From positions 1 through 64,000 of the forward strand of contig NZ_CP036537.1 of NCBI RefSeq assembly GCF_021184025.1: a stretch of 64,000 bases of DNA, read 5' to 3'. Below, in pieces: positions 48,304 to 58,687 of this stretch (position 1 is its first letter; every line of letters begins with the position of its first letter). The translations under genes and the position numbers were made by a program. The notes under the pieces are model-generated. The model was not told where the DNA came from, ran no database searches, and saw nothing but the letters and a program-made list of their open reading frames with translations. This stretch comes from Rhodopseudomonas boonkerdii (lineage in GTDB: Bacteria; Pseudomonadota; Alphaproteobacteria; Rhizobiales; Xanthobacteraceae).

Positions 48304-49791
48304 ATGAAGATTCGAATTGCGCTGATCGCTTTGCTGGCGCTCTCCACCGCTCCCGTCAGGCACGCCACCGCTGCCGAGGACCGCGTTCCGCGGATCGCTC
48401 TGGTGATCGGCAATGCCAAGTATCCGGACGCCGAAGCCCCCCTCAAGGAACCGATCAACGATGCCCGCGACATTGCGGCCGAGCTGAAACGTGCCGGCTT
48501 CGAAGTCGAGACCGGCGAGAATCTCAGCGGCGATGGCATGCGCCGCGCGTTGGAAAAACTCTATGGCAAGGTGACGCCGGGCACGGTGGCATTGGTGTTC
48601 TTCAGCGGTTACGGCATCCAGTCGTCGCGCCAGAGCTATATGATCCCGGTCGATGCGCAGATCTGGACCGAAGCCGACGTCCGCCGCGACGGCTTCAGCC
48701 TCGAGACGACGCTCAACGAACTTAACGGCCGCGGCGCCGGGGTGAAGATCGCCTTGCTGGACGCATCGCGCCGCAACCCATTCGAGCGGCGGTTCCGCAG
48801 CTTCTCCGCCGGCCTCGCGCCGGTGATCGCACCCAGCAACACGCTGGTGATGTATTCCGCCGCCCTCAGCTCTGTGGTGAGCGAGGCCGGCTCCGATCGC
48901 AGCCTGTTCGCAACCGAACTGCTCAGAGAGATCAAGGTCCCGGACATTACGGCCGAACAGACCCTGAACCGCACCCGCGTTAACGTTACGCGCGCCTCGC
49001 GCAGCGAGCAAGTGCCGTGGATATCGTCGTCGCTGGCAGAAGATTTCGCCTTCATCCCAGGTGCGCGTCCCTCATCCGCGGCCGTTACCACTGCGCCAGC
49101 GACTGAGCCAACCCCGGCGCCAACCGTATCGCCGCGTCCCGCGCCTGTCGCACCTGCGCCCGCCAAACAGGCTGCCGTCACTCCCACCCCTCAGCCGGCC
49201 GCGCCAGCTCCAGCGCCGCCTCCGGCGACCGCGCCCGCAGCGCCACCGGCCGCCGACGCACCACGCGATGAAAACAAGATCCTGCTGACGCTGGCCGACG
49301 ATCCGACGGTAAAATCTCTGAACAGCAAGATCGCCGAAAACACTGAAGATGTCGGCGCGCTTTATAGGCGCGGCCAGGTGTATGCCAGCAAAGGTGCTTA
49401 TTCCGCCGCTCTGAAGGACTTCGACGCAACCATCAGACTCAGCCCCAAGGACGTCGAAGCCTATAACAACCGGTGCTGGGTCCGTGCCGTGACCAACGAT
49501 CTTGCCGGCGCGCTCAAGGACTGCAACGAAGCGCTGCGGTTGCGGCCGAATTTCGTCGATGCGCTGGATAGTCGCGGCCTGGTCAATCTCAAGAACGGCC
49601 AGAGCAAGAATGCCGTTACCGATTTCGATGCAGCCCTGAAGATCAACCCACAACTGACGTCCTCGCTCTATGGGCGCGGCCTTGCCAAGCAGCGCCTCGG
49701 CCAGACCGCCGAAGGCGAACTCGACATTAACAATGCCAAGGCAATGGACCCCGATATCGTGAAGGAATTTGCCGCCTACGGCGTGCGCTGA
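48304..49791 (+). CDS. Secreted pseudo-caspase (C14-like) with C-terminal TPR repeats
   Basis: The 495-residue product has a signal peptide (1-23), a caspase-fold p20-like domain (about 28-250), a Pro/Ala-rich linker (about 255-325) and about four TPR units (about 350-490). The fold's landmarks are RIALVIGNAKY, FFSGYGIQ and LLDASRRNPFERRF. In active prokaryotic caspases these read SGHG and LDAC, but here the His is Tyr103 and the Cys is Ser155, so classic peptidase activity is not expected. It was probably retained as a binding or scaffold protein in the periplasm. I chose the ATG at 48304 because a signal peptide starts there. OmpA and RND genes follow; a paralogue lies at 55731. Confidence 0.88.
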   Translation: MKIRIALIALLALSTAPVRHATAAEDRVPRIALVIGNAKYPDAEAPLKEPINDARDIAAELKRAGFEVETGENLSGDGMRRALEKLYGKVTPGTVALVFFSGYGIQSSRQSYMIPVDAQIWTEADVRRDGFSLETTLNELNGRGAGVKIALLDASRRNPFERRFRSFSAGLAPVIAPSNTLVMYSAALSSVVSEAGSDRSLFATELLREIKVPDITAEQTLNRTRVNVTRASRSEQVPWISSSLAEDFAFIPGARPSSAAVTTAPATEPTPAPTVSPRPAPVAPAPAKQAAVTPTPQPAAPAPAPPPATAPAAPPAADAPRDENKILLTLADDPTVKSLNSKIAENTEDVGALYRRGQVYASKGAYSAALKDFDATIRLSPKDVEAYNNRCWVRAVTNDLAGALKDCNEALRLRPNFVDALDSRGLVNLKNGQSKNAVTDFDAALKINPQLTSSLYGRGLAKQRLGQTAEGELDINNAKAMDPDIVKEFAAYGVR

Positions 49792-49957
49792 GACCCCGGC
49801 AAGGCGACACACAATTTTGCCAAAATGGGCTTGAACCAACGTAGCGCAGACGGACACTACTGAACAACAAGCCGGACGCCGACCTTGTCAGACGGCCGGG
49901 AAACGACTTCGGAGTGAGCCTCGCGCCTGTTGCGCGATCGAAAAGAGAGATGCTGTC

Positions 49958-50617
49958 ATGTCGAGATCGTCCACACGCTTTAGCGTCAATGTCATCCGCG
50001 CGGCCTTCATCGCAGGCGCTACCATCACCTTTACTGCCGGCACGGTAGTCGCGGCCGATGACATCACATCCGATCAGATTCTCCGCGCGCTGGCGCCGAA
50101 GAAGCCGCTCACCCGAGGCCTCTCGATGACTCCTCCGACCGAGCCAGCTATCAATGCTGCCGAAGGCAAGTTCATGGATTCGATTCGCAACCGCAGTACC
50201 CGCTCGTTGTCGATGGGCGAGCGCGAACAGATCGCTACCATCGCGCAGACCAAGCCGGCGATCGATCTGGAGATCAATTTTGACTACAACTCGGCGAATA
50301 TCAGCAAGCGCTCAATGTCGTCGGTACTGGCGCTTGGCAAAGCGTTGAGCAGCCCCGACCTCAAGGGCTCGACCTTCGTGGTCGCCGGTCACACCGACGC
50401 CGTCGGCGGCGAAGAGTACAATCAGGACCTGTCGGAGCGCCGTGCAGATTCGATCAAGCGCTATCTGATCGAGCGCTTCGGCATCGCCGGCGCCGATCTC
50501 GTGACAGTCGGCTATGGCAAGACCAAGCCGAAGAGCGGTCTTGCGCCGACCGACCCGACCAACCGCCGCGTTCAGGTCGTGAATATGGCCAATAAAGCAA
50601 CCGCCTCGTCACAGTAA
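49958..50617 (+). CDS. OmpA-family peptidoglycan-associated envelope protein
   Basis: The product is 219 residues with a signal peptide (about 1-33), a 65-residue linker and a C-terminal OmpA domain (about 100-210) containing DLEINFDYNSANI, GHTDAVGGEEYNQDLSERRADSIKRYL (in parts), VGYGKTKPK and NRRVQV. Asp147 and the Arg of NRRV correspond to residues that hold diaminopimelate in peptidoglycan. It has no beta-barrel or lipobox, so it is a soluble periplasmic peptidoglycan-binding protein. It follows the pseudo-caspase-TPR gene by 166 bases. Confidence 0.88.
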   Translation: MSRSSTRFSVNVIRAAFIAGATITFTAGTVVAADDITSDQILRALAPKKPLTRGLSMTPPTEPAINAAEGKFMDSIRNRSTRSLSMGEREQIATIAQTKPAIDLEINFDYNSANISKRSMSSVLALGKALSSPDLKGSTFVVAGHTDAVGGEEYNQDLSERRADSIKRYLIERFGIAGADLVTVGYGKTKPKSGLAPTDPTNRRVQVVNMANKATASSQ

Positions 50618-50656
50618 TGCGCTGAGGTACACATCACCGCTGCGGATTGACGCATG

Positions 50657-50692
50657 ACAGCGTTCCGGCCTCACGGAGCGCTGTTTGCTTTT
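50657..50692 (+). terminator. Intrinsic terminator after the OmpA-family gene
   Basis: Arms acagcgttccg (50657-50667) and cggagcgctgt (50674-50684) pair with one wobble and a 6-base loop, followed by ttgctttt. It lies 40 bases after the OmpA stop and separates that gene from the RND operon, which therefore needs its own promoter around 50693-50786. Confidence 0.75.
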
Positions 50693-50786
50693 GGCGATCA
50701 TACACATCCCGTATAGGATCGCCCCCACCCTGCCGAGGCACCGCGCATTGACCGGTGTCCGCCCTGCCAAGTGGACCTATTCGACA

Positions 50787-51680
50787 ATGAAGGCCTCTGC
50801 CCGCACCGCCCCGGCCCTTGCTATCCTGTCGTTGGCGACGGCAGCCGTCGCCGCCGATCCCGCTCCGGGCGGATCGCCCAACGGCGCGGTCGTGACCGTC
50901 GCCAAGGCGACCAATGCCTGTTTCTCCGATCAGGTGCGAGTCACCGGTTTCGTCGTGCCGCGACGCGAAGCGCAGGTTGGCGTCGATACCGAAGGCTCTC
51001 GCGTCTCTGAAGTTCTGGTTAAGGAAGGAGACATGGTCACCGAGAACCAGGAGCTCGCACGATTGCTTCCGCCGCCATCCGCCAGCAACGCGCGCCCCAA
51101 TGCGGTACCGTTGCGCGCTCCCGCCGCTGGCCTCGTGACGACGGTGCAGACCCAGGCCGGCGCGCCGGCATCGCCGCAGGCCGGGCCGATGTTCAAGATC
51201 GCGATCAACAATGAGCTTGAACTCGACGCCGAAGTGCCAAGCATTCACATCCTGAAGCTCAATCCCGGCGCCACCGCGCGGATTAGTCGAGACGACCATG
51301 CAGACGTGTTCGGCAAGGTGCGGGTAGTGTCTCCGCAAATCGATCGCACCACGCAGCTTGGCCATGTCCGACTGTCGCTCGCGCCCAATCCGTCGATCAA
51401 GGTCGGCATGTTCGCGCGCGCCAATATCGATGCGCGCCGCAGCTGCGGTGTCGCCGTTCCGCGCTCGGCCATCGAGCACTTCACCGTGCAACTGGTGAAG
51501 GGCAATGTGATCGAGACGCGACGCGTGAAGGTCGGTCTGGTCTCCGACAGTTCCACCGAAATACTCGAGGGTGTCGAGGTCGGCGACATCGTCGTCGCCG
51601 ATGCCGGCACATCGCTGCATGACGGCGACAGAGTTCAGACCATCTTCGTCGACGATCTCGACCGTTCGCGAGTGCGCTAA
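50787..51680 (+). CDS. RND efflux periplasmic adaptor (membrane fusion protein) 1
   Basis: The product is 297 residues with a signal peptide (about 1-23) and a short HlyD/RND adaptor: a barrel-sandwich hybrid (RVTGFVVPRREAQVGV; VLVKEGDMVTENQELARLLPP) but almost no alpha-hairpin, then beta-barrel and membrane-proximal domains. Two cysteines, Cys45 (NACFSD) and one in SCGVAVP, recur in the second adaptor and could form a disulfide. The ATG at 50787 heads a signal peptide; the upstream TTG-type start at 50685 abuts the terminator. The stop codon is directly followed by the pump ATG. Confidence 0.85.
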   Translation: MKASARTAPALAILSLATAAVAADPAPGGSPNGAVVTVAKATNACFSDQVRVTGFVVPRREAQVGVDTEGSRVSEVLVKEGDMVTENQELARLLPPPSASNARPNAVPLRAPAAGLVTTVQTQAGAPASPQAGPMFKIAINNELELDAEVPSIHILKLNPGATARISRDDHADVFGKVRVVSPQIDRTTQLGHVRLSLAPNPSIKVGMFARANIDARRSCGVAVPRSAIEHFTVQLVKGNVIETRRVKVGLVSDSSTEILEGVEVGDIVVADAGTSLHDGDRVQTIFVDDLDRSRVR

Positions 51681-54600
51681 ATGGCAATGAATATCTCGGC
51701 ATGGTCGATCCGTCATCCGCTTCCCTCTGTCGTCTTTTCGATCATCCTTCTGCTGCTGGGCTGGGTGAGCTTCACCAAACTGGCGATCACGCGACTCCCG
51801 AGTGCGGACATTCCCGTGATCTCCGTCGCGGTGGCGCAATTCGGCGCCGCGCCCGCGGAACTCGAGGCGCAGGTCACTAAAACGATCGAGGACGGCGTCT
51901 CCGGCGTGGAAGGCGTCCGGCATATTTCATCCTCGATCACCGACGGCCTATCGGTCACCACCGTCCAGTTTGCTCTGGAGACAAACACCGACCGCGCACT
52001 CAATGACGTGAAGGACGCCGTCACCCGCGTCCGCGCCAACCTGCCGCAAAACGTCAACGAACCGCTGATCCAGCGAGTGGACGTGATTGGCTTGCCGATC
52101 GTCACTTATGCCGCGATCTCGCCGGGCAAAACGCCTGAACAACTCTCCTGGTTCGTCGACGACGTCGTGAAGCGCGCGCTACAAGGCGTTCGCGGCGTGG
52201 CACAGGTCGAGCGCATCGGCGGTGTCGAGCGCGAAATCCTCGTTTCGCTCGATCCTGATCGGCTGCAGGCTGCCGGCCTGACCGCAGTGGACGTCTCACG
52301 CCGCCTGCGCGGCACCAATGTCGATCTCGCTGGCGGCCGCGCCGAAATCGGCAGGAATGACCAGGCGATCCGCACGCTTGCGGGCGCCAAGACGCTGAAC
52401 GAACTCGCGGGCACTATGATCAGCCTGCCTTCCGGCGGCGAAGTACGGCTGGAAGACCTCGGCACCGTGACCGACACCATCGCCGATCGCCGCACCTTCG
52501 CACGTCTCAATGGCGAACCCGTCGTGGCGCTCGGCATTAAGCGCTCCAAGGGAGCCAGCGACGTGGTGGTCGCGGAAGCCGTACAGAAACGTATCGACTC
52601 GTTGAAAGAATCCTATCCGGATGTCGATCTGAAATTGATCGACACGTCAGTGGATTTCACCAAAGGCAATTACGACGCCGCCATGAGCACCCTGTTCGAG
52701 GGCGCGGCACTGGCGGTCATCGTCGTATTCCTGTTCCTGCGCGATCTGCGCGCTACCGTGATCGCCGCGGTCTCGCTGCCGCTCTCCATCTTCCCGGCAT
52801 TCTGGGTGATGGACATGCTCGGCTTTTCGCTCAATCTCGTGAGTTTTCTGGCAATCACGCTGTCCACCGGCATTCTCGTTGACGACGCCATCGTCGAGAT
52901 CGAGAACATCGTGCGGCACATGCGCATGGGCAAATCGCCCTATCGCGCTGCGCTGGAAGCCGCTGACGAAATCGGTCTCGCGGTGATCGCCATCAGTCTC
53001 ACCATTATCGCGATTTTCGCGCCCGCCAGCTTCATGTCCGGCATCGCCGGCCAGTTCTTCAAGCAGTTCGGCATCACCGTTTCGGTGCAGGTGTTCTTCT
53101 CGCTGCTTGCTGCACGCTTCGTCACGCCTGTGCTCGCGGCCTATTTCATGAAGGATCACAAGCACGACGATCCACCGCCTGGCCGCATTCTGCAGCTTTA
53201 CCACAAGCTCGTGACCCTCTCGGTGAAGCGCTATTATCTGACCGTGCTATTCGGTATCGGCGTCTTCGCATTGTCGATCCTGAGCATCCAGCTGCTGCCG
53301 CAAGGTTTCCTGCCGGCGCAAGACACAGCCCGTTCGCTGTTGGCAATGGAACTACCGCCCGGATCGCAGCTTGCTTTCACGGAAAAGACCACGGAAGCGA
53401 TCGTCCAGCAGCTGCGCAAACGGCCGGAGATCAAAAGCGTCTTTGTCGATGGCGGCCGCGTGCCGCCCGGCATCTCCGAAGTCCGCCGTGCCTCGCTGAT
53501 CATCAACTATACTCCAAAGGGCGACCGCAAGATCTCGCAGCGCGAACTCGAACTCGCGATTGGCGAAGAACTGCAAAGCGTCCCTGACATCCGCTACTGG
53601 TTCCTCGATGAGAATGGCCTGCGCGCCATCTCACTGGTCGTAACAGGACCTGACATCAATATCGTCAGCAACGTTGCGAACGAACTCGCGACCCAGATGA
53701 AGCGCATTCCGCTGATCGCCAATGTGATCTCGGAAACCTCGCTTGACCGCCCTGAACTGCGCGTCCAGCCGCGCGCCGACCTCGCAGCACGTCTTGGTGT
53801 TTCGACCGAAGGGCTTTCCGAGACCATCCGCGTCGCCACCATCGGTGACGTCGGTCCGGCATTGGCAAAGTTCGATGCCGGCGATCGGCTTGTGCCTATT
53901 CGCGTGCAACTCGAGGACAGCGCACGTTCCGACATCCAGGTCCTGGAGCAACTTCGCGTGCCAATCGGCGGCGGGCGCGGTGGTGTGCCGCTGTCGGTCG
54001 TCGCCGACATCAAGCTCGATCAAGGACCGACCAGCATCAATCGCTACGATCGTGAACGTCAGGCCACCGTCGCCGCCGATCTTGTCGGAACCGCAGCGCT
54101 CGGCGATGCCCTGAAGAAGATCTACGAACTGCCTGTCATGAAGACGCTGCCGAAGAACGTCAGCGTCAAACAATCCGGCGATGCCGAAAGCCTGAACGAA
54201 CTCGCGGACGGCTTTGCGACCGCGATCTCAGCCGGCTTGATGATGGTCTATGCGGTGCTGGTGCTGCTGTTCGGCACCTTCCTGCAACCGATCACCATCC
54301 TGTTCTCATTGCCGCTCTCCATCGGCGGCGCGATCATGGCACTCCTCGTTACCGGCAAGCAACTGACCACGCCGGTCTGGATCGGCATCCTGATGCTGAT
54401 GGGCATCGTCACCAAGAACGCAATCATGCTGGTGGAATTCGCGGTGGAGTCGATTCGCGAGGGCAAGCCGCGCGATGTCGCCATCATTGATGCCGGCATG
54501 AAGCGTGCGCGGCCGATCGTGATGACTACCATCGCCATGGCGGCAGGTATGATGCCTTCGGCTCTGGCTTGGGGCGCAGGCGGCGAATTCCGCTCGCCGA

Positions 54601-54788
54601 TGGCGCTCGCCGTGATTGGCGGCCTGATCTTCTCCACGCTGCTGTCGCTGATCTTCGTACCCGCGATGTTCCTGATGATGGATGATGTCGGCAACCTGTC
54701 GTGGCGCTTCGGCCGCAAACTGCTGGTTTCCAGCGGCGAGGAAGATCGCAGCCATCCGCCGACCAGCCATGAACAGGTTGACCGATGA
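51681..54788 (+). CDS. RND-family efflux pump inner-membrane permease
   Basis: This is a full-length 1035-residue RND permease with twelve hydrophobic segments and two large periplasmic loops. The proton-relay residues appear as Asp401-Asp402 in GILVDDAIVEIEN and the Lys in MGIVTKNAIMLVEFAVES, so it should be active. It resembles HAE-type multidrug pumps (MexF/AcrB group). Its start follows the adaptor 1 stop without a gap, and its end overlaps adaptor 2 by 4 bases (ATGA). No TolC-type outer-membrane gene is encoded nearby. Confidence 0.95.
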   Translation: MAMNISAWSIRHPLPSVVFSIILLLLGWVSFTKLAITRLPSADIPVISVAVAQFGAAPAELEAQVTKTIEDGVSGVEGVRHISSSITDGLSVTTVQFALETNTDRALNDVKDAVTRVRANLPQNVNEPLIQRVDVIGLPIVTYAAISPGKTPEQLSWFVDDVVKRALQGVRGVAQVERIGGVEREILVSLDPDRLQAAGLTAVDVSRRLRGTNVDLAGGRAEIGRNDQAIRTLAGAKTLNELAGTMISLPSGGEVRLEDLGTVTDTIADRRTFARLNGEPVVALGIKRSKGASDVVVAEAVQKRIDSLKESYPDVDLKLIDTSVDFTKGNYDAAMSTLFEGAALAVIVVFLFLRDLRATVIAAVSLPLSIFPAFWVMDMLGFSLNLVSFLAITLSTGILVDDAIVEIENIVRHMRMGKSPYRAALEAADEIGLAVIAISLTIIAIFAPASFMSGIAGQFFKQFGITVSVQVFFSLLAARFVTPVLAAYFMKDHKHDDPPPGRILQLYHKLVTLSVKRYYLTVLFGIGVFALSILSIQLLPQGFLPAQDTARSLLAMELPPGSQLAFTEKTTEAIVQQLRKRPEIKSVFVDGGRVPPGISEVRRASLIINYTPKGDRKISQRELELAIGEELQSVPDIRYWFLDENGLRAISLVVTGPDINIVSNVANELATQMKRIPLIANVISETSLDRPELRVQPRADLAARLGVSTEGLSETIRVATIGDVGPALAKFDAGDRLVPIRVQLEDSARSDIQVLEQLRVPIGGGRGGVPLSVVADIKLDQGPTSINRYDRERQATVAADLVGTAALGDALKKIYELPVMKTLPKNVSVKQSGDAESLNELADGFATAISAGLMMVYAVLVLLFGTFLQPITILFSLPLSIGGAIMALLVTGKQLTTPVWIGILMLMGIVTKNAIMLVEFAVESIREGKPRDVAIIDAGMKRARPIVMTTIAMAAGMMPSALAWGAGGEFRSPMALAVIGGLIFSTLLSLIFVPAMFLMMDDVGNLSWRFGRKLLVSSGEEDRSHPPTSHEQVDR

Positions 54789-55687
54789 TCGTGTCGCGCA
54801 CCTCCTCCACGCAACGGACCAGCGTCATGTTGAAGCGCCTCCTGCTCGCGACAGCTCTCTTTTCACTCGCGACGCCGTGCCTTGCCGCCGACGAGACCGA
54901 CCTCGCCAAGGGCGCCACCGTTACCGTGCTGGCAGCATCCAAGCAGTGTTTCGCCGATACGGTCGATGTCGCAGGCCTGCTGCTGCCGCGCGAGGAAATC
55001 TCGATCCGGCCCGACCGGCCCGGCCTGAAGGTCGCCGAAGTGACGGTCGACGCCGGCGAGACTGTCACCGCCGGCCAGATCCTTGCAAGGTTGACCTCAC
55101 CGGATGGCGGTTCTGTCCAGCTTCAGGCGACTGTCGCCGGTCTCGTCAGCTCATCGACAGCCGTGGTGGGCACCATGGCCTCAGCCCGCGGCGAAGCGCT
55201 GTTCAACATCATTTCGCGCAGCGAATTCGACTTCATCGGTCAGGTGCCCACCCGCGATCTACCGAAGCTCAAGGTCGATCAGACCGCGAAGATCAAGGTC
55301 ATCGGCATCGGTGAACTCGATGCGAAAGTCCGCCGCGTCGCTCCGTCGGTGGAACCGAACAGCCAGCTCGGTCAGGTGGTGATCGCGCTGAACTCGCCGC
55401 GCCGGCTGATGAGTAACTCCTACGCGCGCGCGATGATCAAGACCGGGGAAAGCTGCGGCGTCGCGCTGCCACTTACCGCGATCCTCTATAGCTCGGGCGG
55501 TACCGTCGTGCAGGTGGTGCGTCGCCACCGGATCGAAACGCGGCGCGTCGAGGTCGGACTGTTGTCCGGCGGACAGGTCGAAATCCGCGAAGGCCTCAAT
55601 GAAGGCGATATCGTCGTCGCACGCGCAGGCGCCCTGCTGCGCGAGGGCGACCCGGTACGGCCAGTGACGGCGACTGCAGGGAAATGA
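54785..55687 (+). CDS. RND efflux periplasmic adaptor 2
   Basis: The product is 300 residues and a paralogue of adaptor 1 with the same compact layout: KQCFADTVDVAGLLLPREEISI, VTVDAGETVTAGQILARL, a beta-barrel and a C-terminal SCGVALPLTAI plus IETRRVEVGLLSGGQVEIREGL (in parts). Both conserved cysteines are kept. The ATG at 54785 overlaps the pump stop; the signal peptide itself begins at the in-frame ATG 54827 (MLKRLLLATALFSLATPCLA), which may be the true start. A pump flanked by two adaptors suggests a mixed adaptor ring. Confidence 0.85.
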   Translation: MIVSRTSSTQRTSVMLKRLLLATALFSLATPCLAADETDLAKGATVTVLAASKQCFADTVDVAGLLLPREEISIRPDRPGLKVAEVTVDAGETVTAGQILARLTSPDGGSVQLQATVAGLVSSSTAVVGTMASARGEALFNIISRSEFDFIGQVPTRDLPKLKVDQTAKIKVIGIGELDAKVRRVAPSVEPNSQLGQVVIALNSPRRLMSNSYARAMIKTGESCGVALPLTAILYSSGGTVVQVVRRHRIETRRVEVGLLSGGQVEIREGLNEGDIVVARAGALLREGDPVRPVTATAGK

Positions 55688-55730
55688 TCCGGTCCGCGGC
55701 GCGGGACGATAACGTTCACCCAGATGGAGT

Positions 55731-56597
55731 TTAGCTGCCCGCGCGAGCCGTCACAGCGGCGCCGAACTTAACGTCGTCGATGAGCGACGACGACACGGCA
55801 GGCACCTGCTCACCGTCCGAGGCGCGGGTGACAGCGGTACGGGTATTCGTGAACGCGGCTTCGGCGCTGACCGGCTTCGCCTTCAAGTTCTTCAACAGTT
55901 CGGTGGCAAGCAGGCTGTTCTGGCCTTCGATATCGTCAGCGACCTTGCCCGGCGTTGCCGAGGTGAGGATCAATGCCTTCTCGGGCAGATCGATGGGTGC
56001 GAGACCGCGCGAATAGGCGCGGAAGCGGCGCTCGTAGGGATTGCGGCGGGATGCATCGAGCACCACCAGCTTGGCCTGTGCCCCTTGCTCCTTCATCACA
56101 TCGAGTACGGATTCGACGCTCATCCCCTGACGCCGCACATCGCGTTCGCGCCAGATCGCCGCATCGACCGGGATCATGTAGCTCTGGCGACCGACCTGCA
56201 CACCGTAACCGCCGAAATACAGCATCACCGTGCTGTCGGGCTTGATCTTGTTCTTCAACCGCTCGACGGCGCGGATCATGTCATCGCGCGTGGCATCTTC
56301 GATTACATCGACATCGAAACCATCCTGACGCAGCGCATGTGTGACAGCGCGTGCATCGTTGATCGGCTGCTGTAGCGGCGAGCCCGCATCCGGATAGTGA
56401 CCGTTGCCGATAACCAGGGCCAGACGCGAGCTGTTCGCAACGCTCTGCGTCGTCTCAAGACCGACGGCAGCGCGGGCGGAATCCATCACATGCTTGTTCA
56501 GCGCGGCATGAGCGCCGAGCGCGAGCGAGACCAGACCGGCAAACGCCACGGTGATGGTGATCGATCGACGGGAGATGCGAAATTGCCCTAAGTGCAT
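55731..56597 (-). CDS. Membrane-anchored or secreted pseudo-caspase (C14-like)
   Basis: The product is 288 residues with an N-terminal hydrophobic segment (about 12-32) and a caspase-fold domain (about 57-275): RLALVIGNGHY, LYFGGYGVQ, RQSYMIPVDAAIW and VVLDASRRNPYERRF. The His of the dyad is Tyr131 and the Cys is Ser183, the same substitutions as in the protein at 48304, with which it shares long blocks (VTRAS, EQVP, SSSL near the end). It lacks the TPR region. It converges on adaptor 2 with 43 bases between stops. It is expected in the periplasm, possibly working with the RND or OmpA proteins. Confidence 0.87.
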   Translation of the reverse strand: MHLGQFRISRRSITITVAFAGLVSLALGAHAALNKHVMDSARAAVGLETTQSVANSSRLALVIGNGHYPDAGSPLQQPINDARAVTHALRQDGFDVDVIEDATRDDMIRAVERLKNKIKPDSTVMLYFGGYGVQVGRQSYMIPVDAAIWRERDVRRQGMSVESVLDVMKEQGAQAKLVVLDASRRNPYERRFRAYSRGLAPIDLPEKALILTSATPGKVADDIEGQNSLLATELLKNLKAKPVSAEAAFTNTRTAVTRASDGEQVPAVSSSLIDDVKFGAAVTARAGS

Positions 56598-56935: not shown

Positions 56936-58687
56936 ATGACTGTGACCCAGTTGGTTCGCGCCGCCTTCGAAACGCTGACTGCCCGGAAGAACGGACCGAC
57001 ACTCTATGACCTGTGCGACCCCATTCTTCGCCATCCTGGTACCGGCGACGCCCATATCGTCAAATTCTACAATACGGCGCTCGGGAACCCGGCACTTCGG
57101 TCATTGCTGCGACGGACCGGCCTGCCCGAATTGAGCGATCCCGACCGTTTCAAAGCCCTCCAGAACGCTCTGATCGCTGCCCGGGACGATGCCATGCCGG
57201 ATTGGGCGGCAATCGGTCGGCCAGTGGCCGAGCTGCTTGATACCGTCAGCCTGACGCATCCGGCTCCGCCTCAAGTACCGGCGGCCGGTTGCGCACCCCC
57301 GATCGATCAGATCGACGACGTGATCCGCAGTTGCGGCAAGCATCTGCTGGGCTCTTTTGAAAAAAATGGCTTCATCCCGACCTATGCGGCCTTCAATCTG
57401 ATCGGCGATCCCGACATGCATGGCAGGGAGTTCCTGATGGCGCTGACCGGGTTGAATGCCCGCGGTTACAAGAACTCGACCCTGCTGTTTACGCTCGCAC
57501 GCATCTTCATCGCCCGCTCGCCCGCGGCGAAACTGATCAATCCGCCCTGGACCGGTATTGCCGAGCTGATGTGGGAGCCGGTGCAGATTCGCCATCGCTC
57601 CGCCTATTACGACGCCTTTTTCACCGAGGCCCTGCTTGCTTTCGGCGAGACCGGACTATCAACCCGCGATCAGCTCGCAAAATCGCGCTGCGCCATCGAT
57701 GCGATGATCGAGTTCTGCCTTGTCACTTCACGCGAGGAGGTGAAAGCGCATGACGGCAGCAGGGTCCATGTGGTCACGGCACTGGCGCCGCCCCCGCATC
57801 CACGCTTCAGTCGTTTCTTCGCACAGATCAAACAGGATCTCGGCTTCGGCATCTATGTGCCGGACTGCGACACCACGGCTTGCTCGTTTTCTGCCGCAAC
57901 GCAGGCCGGTTCGAACGATCCTGTTCTCGATCAACCGCTGCTCGACTTCTATGCGGGTTATCAGGTCAACGAAGGCAGCAACGAACCGCTCGTCACGGTG
58001 CCGATCAACGACACCATCAATTATGACGGCGCCATCGCCACCTGGATCGACAATCTCGACGGCCAGCGCCCCTATGGCAACGATCTGGACCCCACACTCA
58101 ATCTCGATGTGCTCGAAGTTTCGTTCCGCAACTGCACCCGCTGGCAGATACTGGAAACACCCAAGCGGCTGTTAACAGTGCAGCGAATTATCGGTTTTCA
58201 ACGACGGCTCGTCGAATCCGGCGCCTTCGCCGATCCGAAATCGCATATCTATTATCTGCCGGAGCTCTACTGCGCTTATTTCGGCCGCTGCTACGCGGCA
58301 TTTCGCGCACTGCCCGACGATGCGCAACGCAAGCTCGATCCCGACAATACATTCGAATTCATCAAGCCACACATTCTCGCTTATGTCGCAGAGGAAATGA
58401 TCGCCCGCGAGATGAACGTGTTCGACGCGGCCCTCGCACTGATGACGCTGGGCCATCTCGGCGGCGACATCGCGCTCTTTGTTCCGCCGTTGCAATGCAT
58501 CATTCGCAACCATGGCGAAGGCGGCCGCAAGGGACCTTTCAAGGCCTATGAATGGAACAAGATGAAGACACCTACCCGCATTCTGGTTGGCGGACCTGAA
58601 GTCACTTCGGCTTTCGTACTTATGGGTCTTGCCCTGGCGCGGCCCGTACTACAGAGCCGCCAATCGTCTCCGCTCGCGCGGAGTTGA
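56936..58687 (+). CDS. Uncharacterised protein, terpene-cyclase-like toroid suspected
   Basis: I do not know this 583-residue protein. It is mostly helical, soluble, and lacks a signal peptide. A DCDTTA motif at 310-315, preceded by Pro309, recalls the DxDD/DxDT catalytic acid of class II terpene cyclases; later pieces such as NLDGQRPYGNDLDPTLNLDVLEVS (in parts) and SHIYYLPELYCAYFGRCYAAF look like the repeated helices of alpha/alpha-toroid proteins. Product and substrate are unknown. The ATG at 56936 is chosen after a gaaag RBS; a longer frame from 56801 adds an Arg-rich, non-conserved-looking tail. Its stop precedes the nuclease gene by 88 bases. Confidence 0.6.
   Translation: MTVTQLVRAAFETLTARKNGPTLYDLCDPILRHPGTGDAHIVKFYNTALGNPALRSLLRRTGLPELSDPDRFKALQNALIAARDDAMPDWAAIGRPVAELLDTVSLTHPAPPQVPAAGCAPPIDQIDDVIRSCGKHLLGSFEKNGFIPTYAAFNLIGDPDMHGREFLMALTGLNARGYKNSTLLFTLARIFIARSPAAKLINPPWTGIAELMWEPVQIRHRSAYYDAFFTEALLAFGETGLSTRDQLAKSRCAIDAMIEFCLVTSREEVKAHDGSRVHVVTALAPPPHPRFSRFFAQIKQDLGFGIYVPDCDTTACSFSAATQAGSNDPVLDQPLLDFYAGYQVNEGSNEPLVTVPINDTINYDGAIATWIDNLDGQRPYGNDLDPTLNLDVLEVSFRNCTRWQILETPKRLLTVQRIIGFQRRLVESGAFADPKSHIYYLPELYCAYFGRCYAAFRALPDDAQRKLDPDNTFEFIKPHILAYVAEEMIAREMNVFDAALALMTLGHLGGDIALFVPPLQCIIRNHGEGGRKGPFKAYEWNKMKTPTRILVGGPEVTSAFVLMGLALARPVLQSRQSSPLARS

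Follow-up and report, generated by a model that had tools for sequence, protein, structure and literature searches.

A pseudo-orthocaspase gene linked to an OmpA gene and an RND pump with hairpin-less adaptors in the Rhizobiales

Gene content of the locus

The window, a 64,000-nucleotide stretch of the Rhodopseudomonas boonkerdii genome (contig NZ_CP036537.1, positions 1 to 64,000), had been read from its sequence alone as carrying two caspase-fold genes around an OmpA gene, an RND permease gene and two adaptor genes. All six were borne out as open reading frames in the places and the order described, with the Pfam domains Peptidase_C14 plus TPR, OmpA, HlyD_D23, ACR_tran, HlyD_D23, and Peptidase_C14, respectively. 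The features of the region are the following:

48304..49791, + strand: casp1, putatively secreted pseudo-orthocaspase with a Tyr-Ser dyad and TPRs at the C-terminus
49958..50617, + strand: OmpA-C family protein (PF00691) with a signal-peptide-like start
50656..50685, + strand: terminator-like hairpin with a T-rich tail between ompA and mfp1; weak consensus match
50787..51680, + strand: mfp1, RND periplasmic adaptor without alpha-hairpin; Cys pair NACF / SCGVA; HlyD_D23 (Pfam)
51681..54788, + strand: rnd, HAE-1-type RND permease; ACR_tran
54827..55687, + strand: mfp2, second adaptor without hairpin; Cys pair; HlyD_D23 (Pfam)
55731..56597, - strand: casp2, pseudo-orthocaspase (Tyr-Ser) with a Tat-like N-terminus, convergent with mfp2
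56936..58687, + strand: orf7, uncharacterised protein with a DCDTTA motif and a fold resembling class II terpene cyclases; divergent from casp2

In Pfam, casp1 matched PF00656 (E 8.4e-36) and TPR_1 (E 7e-20), and casp2 matched PF00656 (E 6.8e-36), both PF00656 matches exceeding the curated cut-off; their translations contain FFSGYG / LLDASR and YFGGYG / VLDASR, respectively. The sole Pfam match of the OmpA protein was PF00691 (E 3.4e-22, residues 108-194), and the protein retains the HTD and LSERRA / NRRV residues, which we take to be those that bind diaminopimelate. The permease matched ACR_tran over its full length (residues 6-1000, E 2.7e-225) and has, by eye, the motifs VDDAIV, TKNAIM, and RPIVMT, presumably the proton-relay residues. 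Against the NCBIfam multidrug subfamilies it scored 694.9 bits with RND_permease_2 (cut-off 1250), and was also below the cut-offs of the other RND models listed. An alternative ATG of mfp2, at 54785, overlaps the permease stop. The N-termini of casp1, OmpA, mfp1, and mfp2 are signal-peptide-like by eye and casp2 has a twin-arginine-like SRRS start, in keeping with the earlier claim that all products other than the permease carry signal peptides or anchors. Neither the Pfam scan of eight proteins of the window nor the neighbours examined gave an outer-membrane channel gene.

Because of the hairpin at 50656-50685, casp1-ompA and mfp1-rnd-mfp2 may form two transcription units; the consensus scan for terminators gave a weak signal (12 in the region versus a shuffle mean of 7.7). 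A scan for Sigma-70-type promoters returned none, with 1.9 expected, and the EcfG-type general-stress motif was absent from the locus, its one match in the window (1.5 expected) lying at 13.7 kb.

Loss of the catalytic dyad

In the checked alignment columns, both caspase-fold proteins have G-Y-G and D-A-S-R where active caspases have G-H-G and D-A-C-R. Both p20 domains lack the His-Cys dyad; with Tyr-Ser in its place, the two proteins are predicted to be proteolytically inactive. Their p20 domains are 49% identical to one another and 30-36% identical to those of the genome's other five caspases, so they are paralogues, as had been proposed. The further proposal, that a duplication spread around the pump, gained no support, since the caspase tree (67 of 189 sequences, kept after thinning at 85% identity) places casp1 and casp2 in separate subfamilies inside one old group.

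Among 111 casp2-type sequences, 94 have the YS and 17 the FS dyad, and a crude regular expression found S/T-R-R near the N-terminus in 101. We also weighed a serine-hydrolase function of the YS dyad and set it aside, because in some relatives (YA, FA, IA) the second dyad site is Ala, which disfavours a serine nucleophile. The surroundings of the dead site are strongly conserved: W92, R128, E132, R133, R134, F135, and R136 reach a conservation of at least 0.99 in 170 pseudo-caspases, but not in 17 caspases with the HC dyad.

Conservation of the gene order

Conserved order in distant genera had been set beforehand as the test of a unit, and was found. Among the 41 genomes of the family, soil bacteria related to Bradyrhizobium, with a permease of at least 71% identity, a set for which the caspase was not a selection criterion, a caspase adjoins the permease in 37; one genome is without it and three are interrupted by contig ends, giving 37 of 38 resolvable genomes, from 12 genera. 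Of 44 permeases of at least 70% identity with at least 3.3 kb of upstream sequence, 43 had a caspase on the same strand no more than 3 kb upstream and 39 had an OmpA gene; many of these loci were retrieved through caspase matches, a bias from which only the permease-first count is free. No upstream caspase was seen for any of the 42 paralogous permeases of at most 61% identity with enough upstream sequence. The whole-genome searches used a casp2 query, which also recovers casp1, and permease queries. We conclude that casp1, OmpA, adaptor 1, and the RND permease form a conserved unit.

The pump and the caspase can nevertheless live apart. The permeases of 62-69% identity, mainly from one genus group (g10), have hairpin-less adaptors and no upstream caspase (0 of 8), and at three g10 loci (L103-L105) a pseudo-caspase is found elsewhere, adjoining orf7 and OmpA without a pump. 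One close genome (G098) has the pump and casp2, with neither casp1 nor OmpA in place.

The unit is also present in two genomes of a second family (L193 and L195), the only genomes found with it outside the first family in the order sample, where two candidates were scored per genome; the permeases in other members of their genus are all caspase-free. In the permease tree, these two permeases nest inside those of the first family, and the first family as one clade was rejected (p-AU 0.001, an optimistic value, since the tested clade was named after inspection of the tree). Their two caspases group apart from the casp1 clade, with long branches and weak support. This disagreement between the two trees over the second family leaves a single transfer of the whole block unproven.

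The tie of casp2 to the pump is looser. Ten genomes of three genera carry casp2 without a pump gene within the fetched 15 kb downstream, and casp2, unlike casp1 (37 of 38), does not as a rule lie beside the pump in the bracketing arrangement first read. The steadier partner of casp2 is orf7, a divergent gene next to it in 100 of 111 cases, while mfp2 neighbours it in 88 of 111. No Pfam or NCBIfam family and no PDB sequence matched orf7. Its fold likeness (to the alpha/alpha-barrel) and its DCDTTA motif (compared with the DxDD-type acid motif) make it a candidate class II terpene-cyclase-like protein.

Adaptors without the hairpin

The alpha-hairpin of an RND adaptor is its TolC-docking part. 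The adaptors of the unit's permease clade are without it and carry a conserved Cys pair: in the alignment, the stretch between the lipoyl halves measures 5-36 residues at 52 loci versus 93-107 at 43 paralogous loci, and the short stretch and the Cys pair track the same permease clade. Besides these 52 hairpin-less and 43 hairpin loci, the set of 102 permeases includes five without an adaptor within 3 kb, left ungrouped, and two single cases. L227 reads 20, its adaptor open reading frame being a fragment of 217 residues that lacks the lipoyl part, and was assigned to the hairpin group by hand; L111 reads 73, with a Pro/Ala/Gly-rich linker and both Cys, and was labelled hairpin though it lies within the hairpin-less clade.

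The AlphaFold2 model of mfp2 (pLDDT 85) has no hairpin helices, and its top PDB match is BesA. Residues 38-285 of mfp1 match residues 29-283 of BesA (4kks), while its best sequence match in the PDB is 6vej (TriABC-OpmH). With the NCBIfam RND_mfp model (cut-off 94.9 bits), mfp2 scored above the threshold (109.0) and mfp1 just below it (92.3). The two adaptor genes of the block are distinct, and both may serve the permease of the locus.

A proposed envelope machine and its alternatives

The adjacency of caspase, pump, and OmpA genes suggests that a dead caspase is now a working part of an envelope machine. Specifically, casp1-ompA-mfp1-rnd-mfp2 may encode one such machine, with the dead caspase joining or gating the pump, a reading to which we give about an even chance. 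From gene linkage and sequence we infer a physical complex in which an inner-membrane RND transporter, driven by protons, would carry two different adaptors, both without the TolC-docking hairpin and holding instead a conserved Cys pair, probably as a disulfide. The OmpA-C protein would tie the assembly to peptidoglycan. The former active-site groove of the secreted dead caspase may bind a peptide or a partner protein, and through its TPRs, serving as scaffold or sensor, it would join the pump or gate it. The second dead caspase, casp2, of the same group and usually adjoining the machine, would have its own partner in orf7. Whether the block represents an envelope machine of a new class is more doubtful, and we propose it tentatively: its RND transporter would have dispensed with TolC docking, bear disulfide-bearing twin adaptors, be anchored to peptidoglycan through OmpA, and be gated by a dead caspase whose old active-site groove reads peptides or misfolded proteins of the periplasm; if true, a pseudo-protease would be the sensor of a transporter.

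Alternatively, the dead caspases may regulate active caspases as decoys or dimer partners, the pump being a neighbour that shares the OmpA anchor and no part of the mechanism. For this there are precedents, c-FLIP for caspase-8 and TbMCA4 for TbMCA3 (Klemencic 2019, PMC6426788). Seven loci from five genera (L080-L083, L092, L093, and L109) have an HC caspase gene, with an open frame of 647-806 codons, immediately before the pseudo-caspase gene on the same strand; six of the seven HC genes are preceded at once by an OmpA gene of their own, and L234 has a divergent HC caspase-OmpA pair. In the caspase tree, a single clade (100/100) unites other OmpA-linked HC caspases with seven of these eight or with close relatives of them. 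However, an HC caspase is present at only 8 of 37 loci, and in the genome of the window none of the four HC caspases and one HA caspase has OmpA or pump genes in its 12.6 kb stretch, while both dead caspases are retained. We consider this explanation unlikely.

The linkage might also be chance or inherited gene order, persisting in a family that rearranges slowly. In its favour, flanking order (MBL, orf7, snase) is retained within the genus as well, and the order sample has the unit in only two genomes outside the family, whose congeners carry caspase-free permeases. Against this, in a control with 37 loci having at least 5.5 kb of upstream sequence, the pseudo-caspase remained in 36 and OmpA in 34, when the next outer gene (labelled MBL by eye) remained in 15, its loss thus affecting over half of the loci, and AsnC and HPPD remained in 2 each. 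The g10 genomes, with a hairpin-less pump without caspase and a caspase without pump, also lean against it. Inserts of about 4-11 kb separate rnd from mfp2 in other genera and leave casp1-ompA-mfp1-rnd undisturbed, the caspase link is confined to one permease clade and seen in no paralogue, and the block recurs in the second family with permeases nested within the first. Chance or inherited order is to us a quite improbable account of the linkage.

In another reading, the pump could export lipids or terpenoids, acting on an envelope lipid together with the terpene-cyclase-like orf7 and, in other genera, an AsmA-type lipid-transfer protein, while the caspase-fold proteins sense the state of the envelope. 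Neither AsmA nor the cyclase turned up in 18 genomes of the genus (E thresholds 1e-60 and 1e-100), a weak result with no positive control alongside. This possibility also appears rather improbable to us. A relation to photosynthesis, as proposed in 2019 for the alphaproteobacterial and cyanobacterial forms, is already disfavoured for the caspase-pump unit and very improbable: pseudo-variants occur mainly in Rhizobiales and were linked to anoxygenic phototrophs (PMC6426788), but the reaction-centre family PF00124 is present in only 10 of the 45 genomes searched, all of which have at least part of the system, and the 13 among them from the genus of the window, its own genome included, all lack it.

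The envelope machine is our preferred reading. Pseudo-orthocaspases are plentiful in Rhizobiales, with no demonstrated role to our knowledge, and the linkage supplies a specific and testable set of partners. The result weakens the photosynthesis hypothesis for this unit and defines a clade of alphaproteobacterial RND pumps whose adaptors are missing the TolC-docking part, so that the route of such pumps to the outer membrane, or the lack of one, becomes directly testable. Moreover, the pairs of active and dead caspases in several genera are a natural experiment in the passage from protease to scaffold.

Comparison with known systems

A literature search returned no paper describing a caspase-RND link, and none on hairpin-less RND adaptors in Rhizobiales, by title or abstract opening, with subscription journals mostly outside its coverage. 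The TriABC-OpmH system of Pseudomonas, comparable to the block if both adaptors of the latter serve its permease, combines two different adaptors with one RND permease, but differs in gene order and adaptor architecture and is not known to include a caspase or OmpA gene.

The Rhizobiales pseudo-orthocaspases have a p20 domain with YS or FS in place of HC, a TPR tail in the FS type and a Tat-like N-terminus in the YS type (Klemencic 2019, PMC6426788). The locus shares the p20 domain, the replaced dyad (YS), a TPR tail (casp1) and a Tat-like N-terminus (casp2). That paper proposes a role in photosynthesis, and in its main text the terms "operon" and "genomic context" do not occur; in the present genomes, most of them without a reaction centre, the caspase goes together with OmpA and an RND pump. 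An OmpA domain is found in 14 of 217 predicted caspase operons (Asplund-Samuelsson 2012, PMC3501461), a feature common to our locus, although the available text of that work describes no RND pump and does not use the word "efflux". BesABC of Borrelia is an RND pump whose adaptor has no alpha-hairpin (Greene 2013, PMC3807786), and BesA is the best fold match of the mfp2 model. The BesABC operon includes the channel gene besC, of which there is no counterpart among the neighbours examined here; the present locus has, in addition, two adaptors, the Cys pair, the OmpA protein, and the caspase.

The locus and the caspases of the genome

The six open reading frames of the sequence-only reading were all present and arranged as it described.

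Genes of the locus
48304–49791, + strand, casp1, caspase fold
49958–50617, + strand, ompA, OmpA
50787–51680, + strand, mfp1, adaptor
51681–54788, + strand, rnd, RND permease
54827–55687, + strand, mfp2, adaptor
55731–56597, opposite (−) strand, casp2, caspase fold

The likeness claimed there for casp1 and casp2 was borne out by 49% identity between them, and both have Tyr at the catalytic His site and Ser at the catalytic Cys site. The genome, a single contig of 5.63 Mb from a genus (group g1) that contains Tardiphaga, holds seven PF00656 matches, casp1 and casp2 included. The other five, four with an active-type His-Cys (HC) dyad and one HA, are 30–36% identical to casp1 and casp2, and no OmpA or pump genes were found within about 6 kb on either side of them. 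The HA caspase (L256:4270–6801) retains His and has Ala in place of Cys; its open frame spans 844 codons.

Association of caspase and permease genes

Neighborhoods of casp2, casp1, and the permease were fetched from relatives, and ORFs were labeled with BLAST and a caspase HMM derived from the genome's own seven caspase proteins. Where the permease was at least 70% identical to rnd and had at least 3.3 kb of upstream sequence, a same-strand caspase lay within 3 kb upstream in 43 of 44 loci, and OmpA was upstream in 39 of 44. For permeases of 62–69% identity, a caspase was upstream in 0 of 8, and 2 of 9 had one at another place in the fetched sequence; at 61% or less, none was found upstream (0/42) or anywhere in the fetched stretch (0/44 loci).

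Because many loci had been reached via caspase hits, a second count was made permease-first. It covered 41 genomes with a permease of at least 71% identity from a 149-genome family sample (the matches of G087 and G021 being partial), and permease and caspase coordinates were compared by hand. Co-occurrence, which the sequence-only reading proposed to check for all six genes, was found here for caspase and permease: the caspase adjoined the permease in 37 genomes of 12 genera, was absent in one (G098), and in three the locus ran into a contig end (G119, G028, G154). As the best five candidates per genome were scored in this count, and the best two in the wider search, additional permease copies may be missed.

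Slow rearrangement was controlled for by scoring the 37 loci whose upstream sequence was no shorter than 5.5 kb. The pseudo-caspase was kept in 36 and OmpA in 34; among the outer genes, whose labels (MBL, AsnC, HPPD, AAT) were read from the sequence by eye and the outermost of which may go unseen where a fetched stretch stops early, MBL, which comes directly after these two going outward, was kept in 15, AsnC in 2, and HPPD in 2.

Other genes at the locus

In other genera, ∼4–11 kb separate rnd and mfp2, and this interval holds an AsmA protein, a dCache-HAMP-GAF adenylate cyclase, and an opposite-strand Crp-type regulator. Intervals with AsmA and cyclase include L059:8.3–14.0 kb, L054:10.4–16.0 kb (with the regulator), and L061:6.0–11.5 kb. 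Within 12 kb downstream, in 34 loci with a permease of at least 70% identity and at least 8 kb of downstream sequence, the counts were 22 for AsmA, 18 for cyclase, and 23 for mfp2 on the same strand, and 21 for Crp on the opposite strand. Since neither AsmA nor cyclase was found in the 18 same-genus genomes searched, they are unlikely to be core parts.

The gene next to casp2, orf7 (56936–58687), encodes a widespread uncharacterized protein with no Pfam family; its fold resembles that of class II terpene cyclases, and it carries a DCDTTA motif. In 100 of 111 relatives, orf7 and casp2 are divergently oriented. One further locus (L139), whose casp2 and mfp2 share 68% and 64% identity with the window proteins, comes from a record titled Croceibacterium sp. 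MAG; titled after another order, it is perhaps a misbinned contig.

According to an earlier study (PMC6426788), pseudo-variants among Alphaproteobacteria are restricted to photosynthetic organisms. A photosynthesis role is disfavored for this system, as the reaction-centre family PF00124 occurred in just 10 of the 45 genomes searched, a chosen subset of those carrying all or part of the system, and the 13 of these from the window's own genus gave no match.

Conservation and origin of the dead caspases

The dyad sites read YS (94) or FS (17) in 111 casp2-type proteins, and FS (31), YS (13), YA (3), IS (1), or HC (1) in the 49 caspases with mfp1 downstream, the sole HC being the upstream active copy of L093. 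W92, R128, E132, R133, R134, F135, and R136 (casp1 domain numbering) are conserved at 0.99 or more across 170 pseudo-caspases, many of them close relatives; in 17 HC caspases the same columns are different or variable, and N129 and P130 are common to both kinds. Judged from these columns, the dead caspases are conserved, not decaying.

The caspase tree places the pseudo-caspases together (99/98), along with one HA row, and divides off casp1 (97/94) and casp2 (100/99) as separate subfamilies inside this group. An HC caspase, presumably active, lies directly upstream of a dead caspase on the same strand at seven loci of five genera (L080–L083, L092, L093, L109), preceded by its own OmpA gene in six of the seven; at an eighth, L234, the HC caspase–OmpA pair is in divergent orientation. 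We infer, as the ordinary origin of the dead caspase, duplication of a caspase–OmpA pair with later loss of the dyad.

Adaptors without a hairpin

In a survey of the nearest adaptor of each of 102 permeases, the stretch between the lipoyl halves, site of the alpha-hairpin of RND adaptors, measured 5–36 residues in 52 loci versus 93–107 in 43; L111 and L227 were odd rows, and five permeases had no close adaptor. The 52 short-stretch loci all fall in one permease clade of 58 (SH-aLRT 100). Two conserved Cys positions are both present in 51 of these 52 hairpin-less adaptors (L074 lacks one) and in L111, and in 0 of the 43 paralogues. The AlphaFold2 model of mfp2 (pLDDT 85.2) consists of beta structure and a single short helix at the N-terminus; BesA chains are its top PDB hits (TM-score 0.61–0.68 by query length). 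BesA is described in part of PMC3807786 as an adaptor without the hairpin, and rare proteobacterial sequences, for example, from Legionella, are also mentioned there. The hairpin is absent from both BesA and mfp2, the latter judged from its predicted model. Given the short stretch and the BesA-like model, the TolC-docking element has been lost in the caspase-linked pumps and retained in the caspase-free paralogues sampled from the same order.

Hairpin-less adaptors are also found in the group of permeases of 62–69% identity (L237–L242), where no caspase adjoins; loss of the hairpin thus extends further than the link to the caspase. In these loci (group g10), the hairpin-less Cys adaptor and permease adjoin a Crp-type regulator; the pseudo-caspase of this group is located elsewhere, beside orf7 (L103–L105).

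Occurrence in a second family

The arrangement caspase-ompA-mfp1-rnd was also found in a second family of the same order (f42, genus group g128), in two genomes (L193, L195) whose permeases are 72–76% identical to that of the window. Both genomes also hold ordinary caspase-free RND loci (L194, L196), and three further g128 genomes (G273, G349, G423) had the caspase-free kind only among the best two candidates per genome. Both f42 permeases are nested within the first family's clade in the permease tree, and the first family as a single clade was rejected (p-AU 0.001) for a test group chosen after viewing an initial tree. Block transfer is the simplest account of this tree. The caspase tree disagrees, with the two f42 caspases outside the casp1 clade on long branches of weak support, and caspase and permease may have a mixed history in f42.

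Proposed function and comparison with known systems

On genomic and structural-predictive grounds, the reading we adopt, at even odds, is one envelope machine, with a dead caspase that would bind peptide and act as a scaffold or gate for the hairpin-less RND pump, anchored by OmpA. The fixed combination of these parts was not found in the literature searched for a caspase–RND link and for hairpin-less RND adaptors in Rhizobiales; that the locus represents a new class of machine seems rather unlikely. The pseudo-orthocaspase, the RND permease, the hairpin-less adaptor, and the OmpA-C protein are each of a familiar kind, and OmpA within caspase operons is already recorded in a section of PMC3501461.
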